DNA from: Candidatus Arthromitus sp. SFB-turkey
GTDB taxonomy: Bacteria > Bacillota > Clostridia > Clostridiales > Clostridiaceae
Direction of reading: 5' to 3'
Assembly: GCF_001655775.1 (NCBI RefSeq)
Contig: NZ_LXFF01000023.1
Span: 1-64,000, forward strand
Length of the DNA stretch: 64,000 nucleotides
This document shows positions 3,620 through 61,546 of the stretch, piece after piece. The notes under the pieces are model-generated. The model was not told the DNA's origin and made no database searches. It saw nothing but the letters and a program-made list of their open reading frames with translations. The translations under genes were made by a program, and so were the position numbers. The first letter of the stretch is position 1. Every line of letters begins with the position of its first letter.

Positions 3620-3787
3620 ATGAATTTAAGTTATTTTTTTAATAAAGATAGTTTTTTTAGAAAACTTATGTTTTGGTTTATAGCTGTAGTTTTCGTAGGA
3701 GTGGTTGTTTTATTGTTAAAGCATGGACATAGTTCTTTATCTCCAGCAGCTAAACGTATGTTTGATGCAATTTCGGTAATTAAATAA
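3620..3787 (+). CDS. Small single-pass membrane protein, 55 residues
   Basis: An ATG 6 bases after AAGGAG (3608-3613) opens a 55-residue frame closed at 3785-3787. A charged N-terminus (about 1-16) leads into one strongly hydrophobic segment (LMFWFIAVVFVGVVVLLL, about 17-34) and a short basic tail ending AAKRMFDAISVIK. A bidirectional terminator begins 11 bases after the stop, so the gene has its own ribosome binding site and terminator. I do not recognise a family. Good initiation signals and sensible composition support a real gene. Confidence 0.6.
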   Translation: MNLSYFFNKDSFFRKLMFWFIAVVFVGVVVLLLKHGHSSLSPAAKRMFDAISVIK

Positions 3788-3798
3788 ATTATATATAA

Positions 3799-3828
3799 AA
3801 AGCTACAATCTTTATTGATTGTAGCTTT
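3799..3828. terminator. Bidirectional terminator between the 55-residue gene and the MFS gene
   Basis: AAAGCTACAATC at 3799-3810 pairs with 3817-3828 around a six-base loop, flanked by A-rich and T-rich sequence. The MFS stop codon (3812-3814) lies in the loop and its last codons in the stem, so the hairpin is part of the coding region. Confidence 0.85.
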
Positions 3829-5008
3829 GTTTATTGTATAAATTTTCGTATAATACAAGAATTATAAAACACAATATTAGGCTGAAACCTGATATTAAAA
3901 ATGGAAGCTTAAACCATAAATCAAAAATTATTCCAGAGGATATTGCGCCTAAAAATGATCCTATGGCTTTAAATCCATTTTGAAGTCCCAATAATTCACC
4001 TTGATTATTTTTTGAATTTTCTATTATCATTGATTGCATAATAGGAGCTATTAATGTATGTGCAATAATAAATATCAGTAGAAAAGTTGTTAAAATAATT
4101 TTATTTGTTGAGGTCATAGAAATTACTATACTTAAACCTGAAATTAATGTAGAGGATAGATATAAAGTTTTTGAACTGAATTTTTTATTTGCAATTGGTA
4201 TAATAAATAAATTTGTAATTAATGTGAACATTCCTGTTGATCCTAAAATCAATCCATTTACTGTTGTTGGTAATTTTAAAATATCTTCAACATAATAGCT
4301 TATTGTTGAAGTATAACTTTGAATTCCTAAAAAAGTTAAAATCATTAATGAAAGTATTAAAAATATAAATTTATTTGATTTTGAAACTTTTTTAAAGTCT
4401 TTTATGCTAAATATTTTTATTGTGAATTTTGCTTCTTTATTTTTAATAGAGATATCTTTAAAAAATATAGCAATACATAATAGAGAAATAAGTGATAAAA
4501 TTATTTGAACGATAAATGTGACTCTATAATCATTTGTTCCTAAATATCCTCCTAATAATGAACCTATTGCAATTCCAAGACTTCCAGATGCGTTTAAATA
4601 TGCAAATCTTTTTAATTTTTGAGAATTTGGAGTTATATACGATACGTAAGAAATACTTGATACGTAGTATCCGGATATAAAAATTCCAGATATAATTCTT
4701 GCAATTAAAACAGTTACATGATTTGGGAAAAATCCAAAAATGACTTGTCCTATAGTATATCCTAACATTCCAAGCATCATAGGAAATTTTTTACCGTATA
4801 AATCACAAATACTTCCAAATGTTGGAGAGGCTACAAATGTTGAAATATTTAGGCATCCGTACAAAAGTCCAAAATAAAAAGTAGGTAGACCCACAGAATT
4901 TATAAGTTTTGGTGTTACAGGATGAACCATACTAAGAGAAGTAAGAACTAAAATGTTTATTAAAATTATTGTTATAAAATTTTTATTATTGTATTTAAAA
5001 TGATTCAA
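3812..5008 (-). CDS. MFS transporter (multidrug/sugar efflux type)
   Basis: 398 residues with about 12 membrane segments. The loop-2/3 motif GSICDLYGKKFPMMLGMLGY matches the major facilitator motif A consensus (G-x-L-a-D-r-x-G-r-k-x-x-l), and a helix-5-like GSLGIAIGSLLGGYLG motif follows around residue 140, as in drug/H+ antiporters. The start is TTG, preceded by AAGGAG with 8 bases of spacing; an ATG directly abutting the AAGGAG is out of frame. The substrate cannot be told from sequence. It is a single-gene leftward unit, divergent from the CYTH gene. Confidence 0.85.
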   Translation of the reverse strand: MNHFKYNNKNFITIILINILVLTSLSMVHPVTPKLINSVGLPTFYFGLLYGCLNISTFVASPTFGSICDLYGKKFPMMLGMLGYTIGQVIFGFFPNHVTVLIARIISGIFISGYYVSSISYVSYITPNSQKLKRFAYLNASGSLGIAIGSLLGGYLGTNDYRVTFIVQIILSLISLLCIAIFFKDISIKNKEAKFTIKIFSIKDFKKVSKSNKFIFLILSLMILTFLGIQSYTSTISYYVEDILKLPTTVNGLILGSTGMFTLITNLFIIPIANKKFSSKTLYLSSTLISGLSIVISMTSTNKIILTTFLLIFIIAHTLIAPIMQSMIIENSKNNQGELLGLQNGFKAIGSFLGAISSGIIFDLWFKLPFLISGFSLILCFIILVLYENLYNKQSYNQ

Positions 5009-5765: not shown

Positions 5766-5807
5766 ATGTCTTATAAAGTATTTTCAAAAGACATTTTTAT
5801 TTTTTTA
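5766..5807 (+). terminator. Probable terminator of the CYTH gene
   Basis: ATGTCTT at 5766-5772 pairs with AAGACAT at 5788-5794, followed by a T-rich tail. It separates the CYTH gene from the transporter operon that starts at 5823. Confidence 0.6.
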
Positions 5808-5822
5808 CAGGGAGAGAAAGAA

Positions 5823-6701
5823 TTGAAAAAATTTATACATAAGATTCCAATTTTGTTGTATTTGATTTTATTTTTGACTATTTTTACATCATGTGTAAGT
5901 CAGGATAATGTTTCAGAAAAAAATATAGAAGATAAGTTAAGAATTGTTTCTCTTGCACCTTCTAATACAGAAATTTTAGTTGGATTATCTTTAGGAGAAA
6001 ATATAATAGGTGCAGATGAGTATTCAGAAAAAGTTGAAGGTATAAATAAAGAAGCTCAAATTTTTAGAATTGGAGATCCAAATATAGAAGAATTATTAAA
6101 ATTAGATCCAGATATTGTACTATTATCTGGGCATGTTTCTTATGTGGCTAAATTTGAAGAACTCAAGAATTCAGGAGTTGAAATTATAAATATAGAAACA
6201 GCTGAAAGTATAGATGAAATTTATGATTCCATGTTGTTTATAGGAGAAAAAACTTACAAGTTAGATGAAGCAAATAAAATGGTTGAAGATTTAAAAAATA
6301 AGATTGAAGAAATTAGTAAAGATAATTCTGATCAATCTGTAACAGTTTATTTTGAAATATCTCAAGCACCGTATATTTATAGTTTTGGTAGTAATACTTT
6401 TTTAAATGAATTATTGATGCTATCAGGTGGAACAAATATATTTCAAGATTTAGATGGATGGATTTCTCCAAATGAAGAATCAATAATAAATGCTAATCCA
6501 CAAATTATTTTTACAAATGTTGATGTAACAGGAAATATTGATGAAATTAAAAGTAGAGTTGGATGGGAAAATATAGATGCTGTAAAAAATAATAGGGTTT
6601 ATTACATAGATAAGGATTATTCTTCTAGACCATCTCAGTTTTTCATAAACGCATTATATCAAATGAATGATTATATAAAACAAGTTTTAAATGAAAAATA
6701 G
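5823..6701 (+). CDS. Substrate-binding lipoprotein, BtuF/iron-complex family
   Basis: 292 residues from the TTG at 5823, chosen for GGGAG about 8 bases upstream and because it places a lipoprotein signal at the N-terminus (hydrophobic core, then lipobox ending FTSC near residue 26). The mature part has the helical-backbone binding fold of BtuF/FecB-like proteins: RIVSLAPSNTEIL near the N-terminus, ELLKLDPDIVLLSG, and the ANPQIIF segment. These bind cobalamin, heme or ferric siderophores; which one cannot be said. Its stop overlaps the permease start by 11 bases, so the genes are translationally coupled. Confidence 0.85.
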   Translation: MKKFIHKIPILLYLILFLTIFTSCVSQDNVSEKNIEDKLRIVSLAPSNTEILVGLSLGENIIGADEYSEKVEGINKEAQIFRIGDPNIEELLKLDPDIVLLSGHVSYVAKFEELKNSGVEIINIETAESIDEIYDSMLFIGEKTYKLDEANKMVEDLKNKIEEISKDNSDQSVTVYFEISQAPYIYSFGSNTFLNELLMLSGGTNIFQDLDGWISPNEESIINANPQIIFTNVDVTGNIDEIKSRVGWENIDAVKNNRVYYIDKDYSSRPSQFFINALYQMNDYIKQVLNEK

Positions 6702-7707
6702 TAAATTAATAAAGATAATATTTATAATTTGTTTTGCAATTTTTTCAGTATTTTTAGGGATAATTGTTGGTGGAAAGATAGAAAACATAAGAGATATTTT
6801 GGAGATTATTTTACATAAACTTTTTGGTTTTAATATAGATGAAAGCATTTCACAAACAAAAATTTCTATTATTTGGGATATTAGATTACCTAGAGTTTTA
6901 CTTTCTTTTTTAGTTGGAGGAATGCTTTCAGTTAGTGGTGCTGTTATTCAATCTGTTTTAAGAAATCCTCTTGCATCATCTTATACAATAGGTATTTCAT
7001 CAGGAGCTTCTTTGGGAATTGGACTTTTTATTGTTTTGGAAGTTGCAACTTCATATTTTATATATCCAGTTGTTGGCTTTATATGTTCTATTATAACTGC
7101 AATATTTGTTATTTACTTGTCTAAGAAAATTGATAAATATATGTCAAACAATACTATAATTCTTATTGGTATGGTTGTTTCATTGTTTTTAAATGCTTTT
7201 TTAACTTTCGTAACTTCTATACAAAAAGAAAGTTTATCTTCAATTATCATATGGCAAATGGGATCCTTTTCTTCTAGAGGATGGGAATATATGCTGTCCA
7301 TTATTCCGTTTTTTTTAATATCAATTATAGGAATTATGATGTTATCAAATGAAATGGATATTTTAACATTTGGTGATGAGATGTGTAGCGCAGTTGGTGT
7401 TAATTTAAATAGAACAAAAGTTAAATTGTTGATTTTTTCAACTATTTTAACGGGAGCTAGTATAGCCTCAAGTGGAATAATAGGATTTGTAGATTTAATA
7501 ACCCCTCATATATCTAGGAAATTATTTGGATCTAAACATGTTGTTATTGTACCTATAAGTATGATTTTAGGAGGTGCACTTATGGTTATGTTTGATATAA
7601 TAGCAAGAGTTGTTATATATCCAGCAGAACTTCCTATATCAACAGTTAATGTTTTAATAGGTACACCTATATTTTGTTATATATTTTTTAAGAAAAATAG
7701 GAGGTAA
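6691..7707 (+). CDS. ABC transporter permease, FecCD/BtuC family
   Basis: 338 residues with about nine or ten membrane segments. Diagnostic stretches are WDIRLPRVLLSFLVGGMLSV, followed by GAVIQSVLRNPLASSYTIGISSGASLG, the family signature around residues 85-110, and FVDLITPHISRKLFG near residue 265, the cytoplasmic coupling region that contacts the ATPase. It would form the homodimeric channel of the BtuFCD-type importer encoded by the flanking genes. It starts at ATG inside the 3' end of the binding-protein gene; its TAA stop is followed immediately by a second TAA in the next frame and then the ATPase gene. Confidence 0.92.
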   Translation: MKNSKLIKIIFIICFAIFSVFLGIIVGGKIENIRDILEIILHKLFGFNIDESISQTKISIIWDIRLPRVLLSFLVGGMLSVSGAVIQSVLRNPLASSYTIGISSGASLGIGLFIVLEVATSYFIYPVVGFICSIITAIFVIYLSKKIDKYMSNNTIILIGMVVSLFLNAFLTFVTSIQKESLSSIIIWQMGSFSSRGWEYMLSIIPFFLISIIGIMMLSNEMDILTFGDEMCSAVGVNLNRTKVKLLIFSTILTGASIASSGIIGFVDLITPHISRKLFGSKHVVIVPISMILGGALMVMFDIIARVVIYPAELPISTVNVLIGTPIFCYIFFKKNRR

Positions 7708-7713
7708 TAAGGG

Positions 7714-8502
7714 ATTTTAGAAGTTTCAAATCTTTGTTATTCTTATGGTAGAAAAAAGATCTTAGATGATATAAATTTTTGTTTAAAATCGGGAGAACAT
7801 TTAAGTGTAGTAGGTGTTAATGGATGTGGAAAATCTACACTTTTAAAATGTTTGTGTAATTTTTTAAATTATGAAGGAAGCGTTAAGATTGATGGTATTG
7901 AAATTAAAAGTATAAATCCTAAAGATTTGGCTAAAAAAATTACTATATTGCCTCAACAGATTAATATGTATTTTGATTATAAAGTTAGAGATGTTGTTAA
8001 ATTTGGAAGATATGCTCATAGTAAATGGAAGTTTTGGGATAAAAAAGAAAGTGATTATATAAATGAAATTTTAAAGGATATGAATATTTATCATTTAAAG
8101 GATAAGTATATGAGTGAGTTGTCTGGAGGCGAACGTCAGAAAGTTTTTATTGCTAGAGTTTTAGCTCAAAACTCAGATATAATTCTTTTAGATGAACTGA
8201 GTAATAATTTAGATATTAATTCACAAATTTATATGGTACAGAATATTAATCGATGGTTTAAAGATAAAATTTTAATAAGTGTTTTTCATGATTTGAATTT
8301 AATAAGGAATTTGGATAATAGAGTAATGGTTATTAAAAATTCTAAAATTTATAAATATGGTGATGTGGATAGTATTTTTACAAGGGATAATTTGAAAAAT
8401 ATTTATGGTGTAGATATTCAGGAATTTATGATAAGTTCTCTTGAAAAATGGCAGTGTAGAAAAAAGATATTTAATATTAGAAAGGAAGGTAATGAATGGT
8501 GA
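7714..8502 (+). CDS. ABC transporter ATPase, BtuD/FepC type, apparent ATT start
   Basis: 262 residues if translation starts at ATT 7714. Walker A (GVNGCGKST), the LSGGERQKVFIARV signature, Walker B (DIILLDEL) and the H-loop (VFHDL) are all intact, completing the BtuFCD-type importer. The frame is open from 7711, directly after an in-frame TAA at 7708-7710, and has no ATG, GTG or TTG before 7852. Starting at 7852 would remove Walker A. AGGAGG at 7699-7704 stands 9 bases before the ATT, ideal spacing, and the protein would begin with the usual ILEVSNLCYSYG strand. ATT initiation is rare; a start-codon mutation or base-call error is the alternative. The end overlaps the next gene by 7 bases. Confidence 0.85.
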   Translation: MLEVSNLCYSYGRKKILDDINFCLKSGEHLSVVGVNGCGKSTLLKCLCNFLNYEGSVKIDGIEIKSINPKDLAKKITILPQQINMYFDYKVRDVVKFGRYAHSKWKFWDKKESDYINEILKDMNIYHLKDKYMSELSGGERQKVFIARVLAQNSDIILLDELSNNLDINSQIYMVQNINRWFKDKILISVFHDLNLIRNLDNRVMVIKNSKIYKYGDVDSIFTRDNLKNIYGVDIQEFMISSLEKWQCRKKIFNIRKEGNEW

Positions 8503-9155
8503 TAGTTGTTGGAGGTATGATAGGACTTGGTAAGACAAGCGTATCTGAAATTATATCTGAGGAATTAAATTCTCAAGTTTTTTATGAAAGTGTTGATGAT
8601 AACCCAATTTTACCATTATTTTACAGCTCGAGTGATGAAGAAATTAAAATGAATAGATATCCTTTTTTGTTACAACTTTATTTTTTAAATAAGAGATTTG
8701 AATCTATAAAAAAAGCATTTGTACATAAAAATAATATTTTAGATCGAAGTATATATGAAGATTGGTATTTTTGTAAAAAAAATATGGAATTAGGAAGAAT
8801 ATCTGAATTAGAAATGAGTATATACGAGTCTCTTTTAAATAATATGATGGAAGAATTGAGGTTTTTTCCAAAGAAGAGTCCAGATATATTTATATATTTA
8901 AAAGGAAGTTTTGATACAGTTTTAAAGCGTATAACATCTAGAGGAAGAGAATATGAATTAGATAAAAAATTAGTATCTTATTATAAACATATATGGGAAG
9001 GTTATGATGATTGGATGTATAATGTTTATGATAAATCTGATGTATTAACAATTGATATGGATAGAATGGATGTTGTAAATAATGAAACTGATAGAAAAGA
9101 GTTATTAAAACTTGTAAAGGATAGATTAAATGTTACATCTGGAAGCTTTATTTAG
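8496..9155 (+). CDS. Deoxynucleoside kinase (dGK/dAK type)
   Basis: 219 residues. The P-loop GGMIGLGKTS lies at the N-terminus, NILDRSIYEDWYF gives the DRS motif near residue 85, and SRGREYE is the lid-like arginine motif. The family phosphorylates deoxyadenosine, deoxyguanosine or deoxycytidine to dNMPs for nucleotide salvage. The gene overlaps the ABC ATPase by 7 bases and is followed by deoD, so nucleoside salvage enzymes sit in an operon with the importer. ATG follows GGAAGGT. Confidence 0.88.
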   Translation: MVIVVGGMIGLGKTSVSEIISEELNSQVFYESVDDNPILPLFYSSSDEEIKMNRYPFLLQLYFLNKRFESIKKAFVHKNNILDRSIYEDWYFCKKNMELGRISELEMSIYESLLNNMMEELRFFPKKSPDIFIYLKGSFDTVLKRITSRGREYELDKKLVSYYKHIWEGYDDWMYNVYDKSDVLTIDMDRMDVVNNETDRKELLKLVKDRLNVTSGSFI

Positions 9156-29133: not shown

Positions 29134-29209
29134 CGGGGTGTGGCGCAGATGGGAGCGCGCGTGCTTTGGGAGCATGAGGTCGCAGGTTCGAGCCCTGTCA
29201 CCCCGACCA
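29134..29209 (+). tRNA. tRNA-Pro (TGG)
   Basis: Cloverleaf with acceptor CGGGGTG pairing to CACCCCG, GTTCGAGCC T-arm and encoded CCA. The anticodon loop TTTGGGA gives TGG. Confidence 0.93.
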
Positions 29210-29212
29210 CTT

Positions 29213-29286
29213 GCGGGTATCGTATATCGGTAATACTCCAGCCTTCCAAGCTGGCAAGGTGGGTTCGATTCCCACTACCCGCTCCA
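29213..29286 (+). tRNA. tRNA-Gly (TCC), first copy
   Basis: Acceptor GCGGGTA pairs with TACCCGC. Loop CTTCCAA gives anticodon TCC; CCA encoded. Identical over all 74 bases to the copy at 29732-29805. Confidence 0.95.
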
Positions 29287-29303
29287 AATTTTAGATGTCT
29301 TGT

Positions 29304-29380
29304 GGTGAATGTAGTTCAGTTGGTAGAGCGCCAGATTGTGGTTCTGGTTGTCGTGGGTTCGAGTCCCATCATTCACCCCA
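29304..29380 (+). tRNA. tRNA-His (GTG)
   Basis: Anticodon GTG in loop TTGTGGT; acceptor GTGAATG pairs with CATTCAC. An extra 5' G at 29304 faces C at 29377, the encoded G-1 typical of tRNA-His. CCA encoded. Confidence 0.94.
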
Positions 29381-29390
29381 TATCAATTAT

Positions 29391-29466
29391 AGGGATATAG
29401 CCAAGTTGGTAAGGCAACGGACTTTGACTCCGTCATGCGTAGGTTCGAGTCCTGCTATCCCTGCCA
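29391..29466 (+). tRNA. tRNA-Gln (TTG)
   Basis: Acceptor AGGGATA pairs with TATCCCT; loop CTTTGAC gives TTG. CCA encoded. Confidence 0.93.
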
Positions 29467-29470
29467 ATAT

Positions 29471-29546
29471 GGTTCGTTAGCTCAGGTGGTAGAGCACATG
29501 ACTTTTAATCATGGTGTCCGGGGTTCGAGTCCCCGACGAATCACCA
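29471..29546 (+). tRNA. tRNA-Lys (TTT)
   Basis: Acceptor GGTTCGT pairs with ACGAATC; loop CTTTTAA gives TTT. CCA encoded. Confidence 0.94.
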
Positions 29547-29549
29547 AAT

Positions 29550-29634
29550 GCAGGTGTGGCGGAATTGGCAGACGCACTAGACTTAGGATCTAGCGCCTTA
29601 GGGCGTGGGGGTTCGACTCCCTTCACCTGCACCA
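29550..29634 (+). tRNA. tRNA-Leu (TAG)
   Basis: 85 bases with the long variable arm of a class II tRNA. Loop CTTAGGA gives TAG; acceptor GCAGGTG pairs with CACCTGC. CCA encoded. Confidence 0.94.
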
Positions 29635-29650
29635 TACAATGATAAAATGT

Positions 29651-29726
29651 GCGGGAGTAACTCAGTTGGTAGAGTGCCACCTTGCCAAGGTGGATGTCGC
29701 GAGTTCGAGCCTCGTCTTCCGCTCCA
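29651..29726 (+). tRNA. tRNA-Gly (GCC)
   Basis: Acceptor GCGGGAG pairs with CTTCCGC (one G-T); loop TTGCCAA gives GCC. CCA encoded. Confidence 0.93.
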
Positions 29727-29731
29727 ACTAT

Positions 29732-29805
29732 GCGGGTATCGTATATCGGTAATACTCCAGCCTTCCAAGCTGGCAAGGTGGGTTCGATTCCCACTACCCG
29801 CTCCA
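29732..29805 (+). tRNA. tRNA-Gly (TCC), second copy
   Basis: Identical to the gene at 29213-29286, including CCA. Anticodon TCC. Confidence 0.95.
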
Positions 29806-29808
29806 TAT

Positions 29809-29885
29809 GTGTCTTTAGCTCAGCTGGATAGAGCAACGGCCTTCTAAGCCGTAGGTCAGGAGTTCGAATCTCTTAAGACACGCCA
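29809..29885 (+). tRNA. tRNA-Arg (TCT)
   Basis: Acceptor GTGTCTT pairs with AAGACAC; loop CTTCTAA gives TCT, decoding AGA/AGG, the main Arg codons of this genome. CCA encoded. Last gene of the cluster. Confidence 0.94.
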
Positions 29886-49254: not shown

Positions 49255-50041
49255 AATTTAATATGATTTCTAACATTAATAATAGTATAAAGCCTAATAT
49301 AAAACCAATGGTTCCATGATTTTTAGATTTATTTGAATTACATTCTGGTATTAATTCATCAATAACAACAATTATTATAGTTCCGGCAGCAAACGAAAGT
49401 ATAAAAGGTAGAAGGGAAACAATTTTATTTGCTAAAATAATTCCTAGTATACCTCCTAATGGTTCTAGTAATCCAGGAATGGATCCTATAACAAATGATT
49501 TTAGTGTTGAAATTCTTTCATTTTTTAATGGTATGGAAAGAGAAAAACCTTCTGGGAAATTTTGTAGTACCATAGCGATTGATAAGGTGATTGCGCCAGC
49601 TAGACTTCCGGTTAGATTTTGAGAACTACTTAAAGAGAAAGCTATACCTATTGAAATTCCTTCAATCATATTGCGCAGTGCAGAGGATAAAATTATAAGA
49701 GATTTTTTCTTTAGAGACATGGATATAGGTAGATTATTTTTTAAAATTATACATGATATAAATTTATCTGTTAATTTGAATGATAAAGCTCCTAAAATGA
49801 AACCTAAAGTTATGGAAAACAAATTAGTTAGTTTATTATCTGATAATTCTGTAGCTGGTATGAGTAATGACCAAATAGAAGATGAAATCATCATACCTGC
49901 AGTGAAACCTAAAAATATTTTATAATATTTTATACTTAAATTATTTTTGATAAACAATACACAAGAAGCACCTAGTATAGTTGATATCATTGCTATTGTT
50001 GTACTTATTAATGTTAGTTTCAATGATGAGAAAGTATACAT
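49253..50041 (-). CDS. ZIP family metal transporter
   Basis: 262 residues with about eight membrane segments. SALRNMIEGISIGIAFSLSS and AMVLQNFPEGFSLSIPL hold the family's conserved metal-site residues (HNIPEG-type motifs, here NMIEG and NFPEG), with ILGIILANKIVSLLPF and AGTIIIVVIDELIPE following. These transporters move Zn2+, Mn2+ or Fe2+ into the cytosol. CAGGAG is about 13 bases before ATG, somewhat far. The gene is leftward and alone. Confidence 0.88.
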   Translation of the reverse strand: MYTFSSLKLTLISTTIAMISTILGASCVLFIKNNLSIKYYKIFLGFTAGMMISSSIWSLLIPATELSDNKLTNLFSITLGFILGALSFKLTDKFISCIILKNNLPISMSLKKKSLIILSSALRNMIEGISIGIAFSLSSSQNLTGSLAGAITLSIAMVLQNFPEGFSLSIPLKNERISTLKSFVIGSIPGLLEPLGGILGIILANKIVSLLPFILSFAAGTIIIVVIDELIPECNSNKSKNHGTIGFILGFILLLMLEIILN

Positions 50042-61433: not shown

Positions 61434-61462
61434 TTGCATTTTTTCATGAAATATGTTACAAT
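61434..61462 (+). promoter_or_regulatory. Promoter of the rplU operon
   Basis: TTGCAT at 61434-61439 and TACAAT at 61457-61462 with a 17-base spacer, just upstream of the L21 leader. Confidence 0.7.
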
Positions 61463-61530
61463 CTCTCAAGTAACCGCACTTTATAGGTATTTAAGATAAT
61501 GGTTCACCTATTGGGGCGAGTCTTATTTTT
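61463..61530 (+). ncRNA. Ribosomal protein L21 leader RNA
   Basis: The leader before rplU has the pattern of the Firmicutes L21 leader: AACCGCACTTTATAGG, GTATTTAAGATAA, CACCTATTGGGGCGAG. Parts are self-complementary (ATAGGT at 61484 region with ACCTAT at 61505 region). Such leaders bind L21 (or L27) for autogenous control. The call is from recollection of the motif and position, not a covariance search. Confidence 0.7.
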
Positions 61531-61546
61531 ATTGAGGAGGTTTTTT

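Follow-up and report, generated by a model that had tools for sequence, protein, structure and literature searches.

The gene for the ATP-binding subunit of an ABC importer in a segmented filamentous bacterium (SFB) from turkey very probably begins with AUU, judging by the presence of ATT at this place, behind an identical Shine-Dalgarno sequence, in all three genomes of the genus examined. The start is another case of the known near-cognate AUU starts, and gene starts compared over a larger part of the genomes suggest a wider pattern, in which SFB seem to use AUU and AUA starts repeatedly and to keep them. The DNA analysed here (the window) is the first 64,000 bases of contig C23 of the turkey SFB genome (G000; 1,631,326 bases in 41 contigs). 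The other two genus genomes examined are G001, a single contig of 1,515,556 bases, and G002.

The importer locus

The ATPase gene (7714..8502; 262 aa; Pfam ABC_tran, E 6.7e-32) lies on the forward strand, as do its neighbors. Its product is the ATP-binding subunit of a FecCD/BtuCD-type ABC importer, with an H-loop and the three motifs that the first-pass annotation had described as intact: Walker A (GVNGCGKST, 7813..7839), the ABC signature (LSGGE, 8119..8133), and Walker B (IILLDE, 8179..8196). The gene adjoins an open reading frame for a FecCD-type permease (6691..7707; PF01032, E 6e-86), which is preceded by a gene for the substrate-binding lipoprotein of the transporter (Peripla_BP_2, 5766..6701; PF01497, E 1.1e-34); the real start of the latter may lie some codons inside the frame. 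The end of the ATPase gene is overlapped by a deoxynucleoside kinase gene (8496..9155; PF01712, E 2.5e-38).

By their domains, the genes at 5766..8502 are predicted to encode an importer of the FecCD/BtuCD type that takes up iron complexes, heme or cobalamin. The gene order (binding protein, permease, ATPase) and the ATPase motifs are those of the FecE, BtuD and HmuV-like importers; in contrast to these, the ATPase of the window falls below the curated cut-off of every substrate-specific NCBIfam equivalog shown, scoring 195.6 against 261 for the heme family NF010068, 174.1 against 375 for FecE (NF008409), and 113 against 281 for BtuD (NF002981). The lipoprotein gene was likewise under the cut-off of all NCBIfam equivalogs, and no regulatory RNA was detected at the transporter operon when the window was scanned with Rfam. 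Following Walker B (8179-8210), the SFB ATPases read DELSNNLD, DEFNNNMD and DEFNNNLD where relatives have DEPTNHLD, an unusual change in a conserved stretch.

The ATT codon is conserved across the genus

The ATPase frame (7711-8502) consists of 263 open codons directly after an in-frame TAA (7708-7710), and contains no ATG, GTG or TTG until the TTG at 7852..7854, 12 bases beyond the Walker A motif. The Shine-Dalgarno sequence AGGAGG (7699..7704) forms the final two codons of the permease gene and is separated by 9 bases from the ATT at 7714..7716. The first of the two consecutive TAA codons at 7705..7710 is the permease stop (7705-7707), which thus sits between the Shine-Dalgarno sequence and the ATT, while the second closes the ATPase frame upstream. 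The details given in the first-pass annotation all hold. The predicted duplex with the anti-Shine-Dalgarno sequence has an energy of -11.6 kcal/mol, compared to a median of -9.9 for frames with canonical starts; since 24% of the latter have a Shine-Dalgarno sequence equal to or stronger than that of the ATPase gene, it is strong and unexceptional. Counting both strands, AGGAGG occurs at 28 sites in the window, and at only two of them does an ATT stand 5-10 bases on and open 150 codons with no canonical start in the first 40. The second of these sites (36101) was rejected, as it falls within a longer gene that has ATGs upstream in the same frame.

The first-pass annotation had put forward the ATT as the real start, and alignment with close relatives bears this out. 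The start was aligned in 12 sequences, three from the genus and nine from outside it. In the three genus genomes, AGGAGGTAATA is kept unbroken over the junction and is followed by a few variable bases and then by ATT TTA GA(A/G) GT, the spacing between GGAGG and ATT being 9 bases in G000, 8 in G001 and 7 in G002. No ATG, GTG or TTG stands upstream in the ATPase frame in any of them. In G002 the ATT is doubled (ATT ATT TTA), so that the exact start codon there is ambiguous. Canonical codons appear in this column only outside the genus, ATG in four sequences (G019, G031, G035 and G054) and GTG in one (G009); the other four outside sequences have longer N-termini and are not informative on the start codon. 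Between the window (ATT TTA GAA GTT) and G031 (ATG TTA GAA GTT) the difference is a plain exchange of the start codon. A search of genome contigs yielded the G002 genome as the sole close one, and a search of viral contigs yielded no relative.

The protein of the window is 62-66% identical to those of G001 and G002. At a pS of 0.57-0.60, dN/dS is 0.21-0.24 over the whole gene, in line with the earlier remark that the rest of the gene shows no decay, and 0.11-0.25 over the first 50 codons. This purifying selection on the N-terminal stretch indicates that what precedes TTG 7852 is real protein and that the gene is not decaying.

Alternative readings of the frame

A frame with no canonical start could have lost it through a miscalled base or by recent mutation, and would then be a fresh pseudogene; the turkey SFB genome, UMNCA01, is a draft assembled from short reads, in which 60 pseudogenes are annotated (PMC6979296). 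We regard this reading, which the first-pass annotation had kept as its alternative in the form of a single-base loss, as practically excluded, because three separate genomes, among them a single-contig one, have the same ATT with proteins that are 62-66% identical, and a dN/dS of about 0.2 argues against a pseudogene. Initiation at TTG 7852, the first canonical start codon of the frame, would yield a shortened protein. Such a start removes Walker A together with a stretch that is under purifying selection, and the first canonical codons of the frame lie at non-homologous places in the three genus genomes, those of G001 and G002 being elsewhere; an internal start is accordingly very improbable.

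In the window, the permease and the ATPase share one frame and are separated by TAA TAA GGG, an arrangement that could be taken for a permease-ATPase fusion made by stop read-through or frameshifting. However, the two genes lie in different frames in G001 and G002, so neither read-through nor a fixed frameshift can be the shared mechanism, and the window has two consecutive stops between them. No common recoding signal was seen, and local RNA folding at the ATPase start was no better than that of shuffled sequences (z -0.66, 0.26, 1.05). We give the fusion as little credence as the internal start.

Further candidate AUU and AUA starts in SFB genomes

For a wider view of start codons we scanned a sample of 496,959 bases of G000 (30% of the genome, window included) with 356 frames carrying a coding signal, and flagged those in which a Shine-Dalgarno run of at least 6 precedes an AUH or CUG codon and no canonical start competes with it. 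Twelve frames were flagged, and seven starts were accepted after ortholog comparison, that of the ATPase gene and six more, most of them common to the genus. The infC gene starts with ATA in all three genus genomes; its in-frame GTG and TTG codons lie within or before its Shine-Dalgarno sequence and cannot serve as a start. As is the known rule for infC, its start in those relatives from the family and order where it could be read seems to be AUU in most cases and AUA or AUC in some. A histidine kinase gene has ATT in all three genomes, each time 9 bases after GGAGG and in two of them directly behind an in-frame stop. Conserved as well is the ATT-TTT that opens a gene with a rhodanese domain, which we take to be mnmH, at a spacing of 9 (G000), 7 (G001) and 8 (G002) bases.

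The remaining three starts are more variable. spoIIIAA reads ATT ATT in G000, ATT ATC in G002 and GTC ATT in G001, with no canonical start near in any of the three. aroC begins ATT TTA AGA in G000 and G002, and has ATG AGA one codon on in G001; in the six relatives listed, of 13 outside the genus with a match, ATG stands in the ATT column in five and a codon further on in one. A gene with a NAGPA domain, compared in two genomes, has ATT in G000 and ATA in G001. Three candidates were left out of the count: an ATA in L057 (frame 3647-4774), an ATA in L051 (frame 251-862), and a pilin-like frame at L047:10880, a candidate for ATT or ATA with no Pfam match. Two other candidate ATT starts were rejected, one at L038:3264, which has only an A-rich match, and one at L038:3809, which, like its G001 partner in L066, is the part of a selD-like gene that follows an in-frame TGA. 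The selD-like frame was also one of two dropped from the four flagged in G001, the other being a frame in L080 with a TTG behind a good Shine-Dalgarno sequence.

Starts were also compared in a homology survey of coding frames. Among 116 reciprocal gene pairs of the G000 and G001 samples, both members have, by our reading, an AUH start in four: the ATPase, the kinase, the NAGPA-domain gene and infC. The pair screen returned 12 pairs with no early canonical start, the first three of these genes, selD and eight others, the eight being either alignments that start ahead of an ordinary start or unclear cases; infC was missed by the screen because of ATG codons upstream in its frame.

As a control, six further genomes from the family were scanned in the same way over 200 kb each, with 754 coding frames in total. 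Five frames were flagged and none was accepted, these frames having been judged by eye on their context and not by ortholog comparison, a shallower judgement than that given to the SFB frames. Accepted starts thus numbered 7 of 356 in G000 versus 0 of 754 in the control (Fisher p 3e-4), and 5 of 354 versus 0 of 754 when the ATPase and infC were set aside (p 0.003); infC lies outside the control stretches, and the control genomes have a G+C content of 26.5-33% versus 25.7% in G000. The excess of AUH starts is to be taken as an indication, not as a measured rate. A cruder count, of frames whose coding start has no canonical start codon within 20 codons, sets SFB apart from the controls only weakly (9 of 356 in G000, 5 of 240 in G001, and 6 of 500 in four controls). 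A comparison of Shine-Dalgarno strength (Mann-Whitney p 6e-5) involves some circularity, since a strong Shine-Dalgarno sequence had been a condition for finding five of the seven genes, a requirement from which the ATPase and infC were free.

Probable initiation at AUU and its possible role

Taken together, the conserved codon and the conserved sequence before it make it very probable that the ATPase gene is translated from a genuine AUU at 7714 carried by its strong Shine-Dalgarno sequence. We envisage that the sequence AGGAGGU would hold ribosomes, some of which would just have terminated on the permease stop at TAA 7705, and that the ordinary initiator tRNA would be placed on the AUU, so that the protein would begin fMet-Leu-Glu-Val. 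With the permease stop lying between the Shine-Dalgarno sequence and the ATT, ribosomes finishing the permease could re-initiate. infC and pcnB are established cases of such initiation by the normal initiator tRNA on an AUU held by a strong Shine-Dalgarno sequence (work cited in PMC13009471). The initiator tRNAs of G001 and G002 are ordinary, with three G-C pairs and a CAT anticodon, and we discarded an altered initiator tRNA as the cause. Searches by pattern and by similarity did not find this tRNA in G000, most likely owing to an assembly gap. The 16S tail GGATCACCTCCTTT, present in G001, is ordinary too, and an alignment of IF3 showed lineage-specific changes, none of which we could link to fidelity.

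How much protein such a start would give can be gauged from reporters. For AUU, AUA, AUC and CUG in Clostridium butyricum and C. sporogenes, the yield relative to AUG was 5-20% behind one leader and 40-100% behind a second, compared with 0.04-3% for the same codons in Escherichia coli (PMC9680021); Staphylococcus aureus reporters with conserved AUU and AUA starts reached about 10% of the AUG level in poor medium (PMC13009471). From these yields, an SFB ribosome would be expected to initiate at AUU often enough to be useful. The yield of the ATPase would be lower than from AUG, within the span of about 5-100% of AUG set by the clostridial reporters, and we think it likely that it is clearly below AUG.

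IF3 discriminates against AUU, so the output of the ATPase would be expected to fall as IF3 rises, and excess IF3 inhibits non-canonical starts and, where a Shine-Dalgarno sequence is lacking, re-initiation (PMC2268962). That the AUU at 7714 confers an IF3-dependent regulation that matters to the cell is conceivable and, in our judgement, somewhat less likely than not. Drift under A+T pressure accounts for these observations as well. It would turn AUG into AUU or AUA, which clostridial ribosomes tolerate given a good Shine-Dalgarno sequence, and the start would be real while having no regulatory role, a reading on which we are evenly divided. The G+C content of 26% in G000 and the high use of TTG starts (55 of the 301 frames in which a canonical start was scored) speak for drift, as do the state of aroC, in which two species have ATT and the third an ATG one codon further along, and the tolerance of AUU in clostridial reporters (PMC9680021). 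The AUH-start genes are unrelated in function with no common pathway, which favors drift as much as regulation. Against drift stands the long retention of ATT in the ATPase, kinase and mnmH genes across the genus, with no return to ATG.

A broader proposal, which we advance tentatively and hold at somewhat less than even, is that SFB are a lineage with an enlarged set of start codons, in which some 1-3% of genes, or dozens in each genome, might begin with AUU, AUA or AUC and do so in SFB of different hosts. Such genes, among them those for iron/B12-type uptake, a sensor kinase, sporulation (spoIIIAA) and tRNA modification, would make up a standing group whose expression is kept low and is linked via IF3.

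Known systems offer several points of comparison. The first-pass annotation had stated that ATT starts are known mainly from infC, a view that is dated, since pcnB, S. aureus cvfC1 and others have been published. Like the ATPase gene, infC combines a near-cognate start with a strong Shine-Dalgarno sequence, but it encodes a translation factor subject to autoregulation; the ATPase is no translation factor, so that an autoregulatory loop does not arise. Closest to the present case are S. aureus cvfC1 (AUU), ccpN and citZ (AUA), in which an AUU or AUA start is joined to an extended Shine-Dalgarno sequence in a Gram-positive bacterium, and of which cvfC1 and ccpN are conserved. These starts are demonstrated by Ribo-Ret and reporters (PMC13009471), whereas those of SFB are supported by conservation; they also concern other genes in another lineage, and such genes are apparently more numerous per genome in SFB. 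E. coli pcnB, as cited in the same paper, resembles the ATPase gene in being a non-infC gene whose AUU start limits translation, but the gene is unrelated and the enteric ribosome has a far lower AUU yield. Streptomyces sigR is, like the ATPase gene, an operon gene with a non-canonical start missed by annotation, but its codon is GUC and IF3 control was demonstrated there (PMC5472188).

Gene finders usually accept only ATG, GTG and TTG, and genes of this kind are truncated or filed as pseudogenes. SFB are uncultured and host-bound, and their biology is read from the genome; standard gene-finding software probably misreads SFB genes and so distorts gene lists, spoIIIAA, aroC and mnmH included. 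A re-examination of clostridial annotations is urged in PMC9680021, and the SFB starts provide natural, conserved cases on which to test the far better acceptance of AUU by clostridial than by E. coli ribosomes reported there. We found no report of AUU or AUA starts in SFB or Arthromitus in the literature searched, which had most subscription journals outside its coverage, and no SFB proteome or ribosome profiling paper was among the matches listed.

Other observations

The selD-like gene, presumably selD itself, has an in-frame TGA (S-G-TGA-G-A-K) at L038:3806-3808 (G000:C23, about 67.8 kb) and before L066:6517 in G001, and this codon probably encodes selenocysteine. Together with mnmH, the gene suggests a selenium pathway in SFB. 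The histidine kinase gene (L040:8718-10067) has 449 codons in G000 and matches only 262 residues in a frame of 254 codons in G001 (L091), where the gene may be broken or shortened. In the pilin-like frame (L047:10880-11347; KKSGSMLLESVV), the leader seemingly starts at ATT or ATA behind GGAGGTG, and the sole early ATG stands at the expected cleavage site. Elsewhere in the window, a frame at 49320-49622 with coding-like codon use has no start before codon 53 and may be the shadow of another frame, nine tRNA genes are clustered at 29134-29885, and a ribosomal protein L21 leader (RF00559) is located at 61462-61533.
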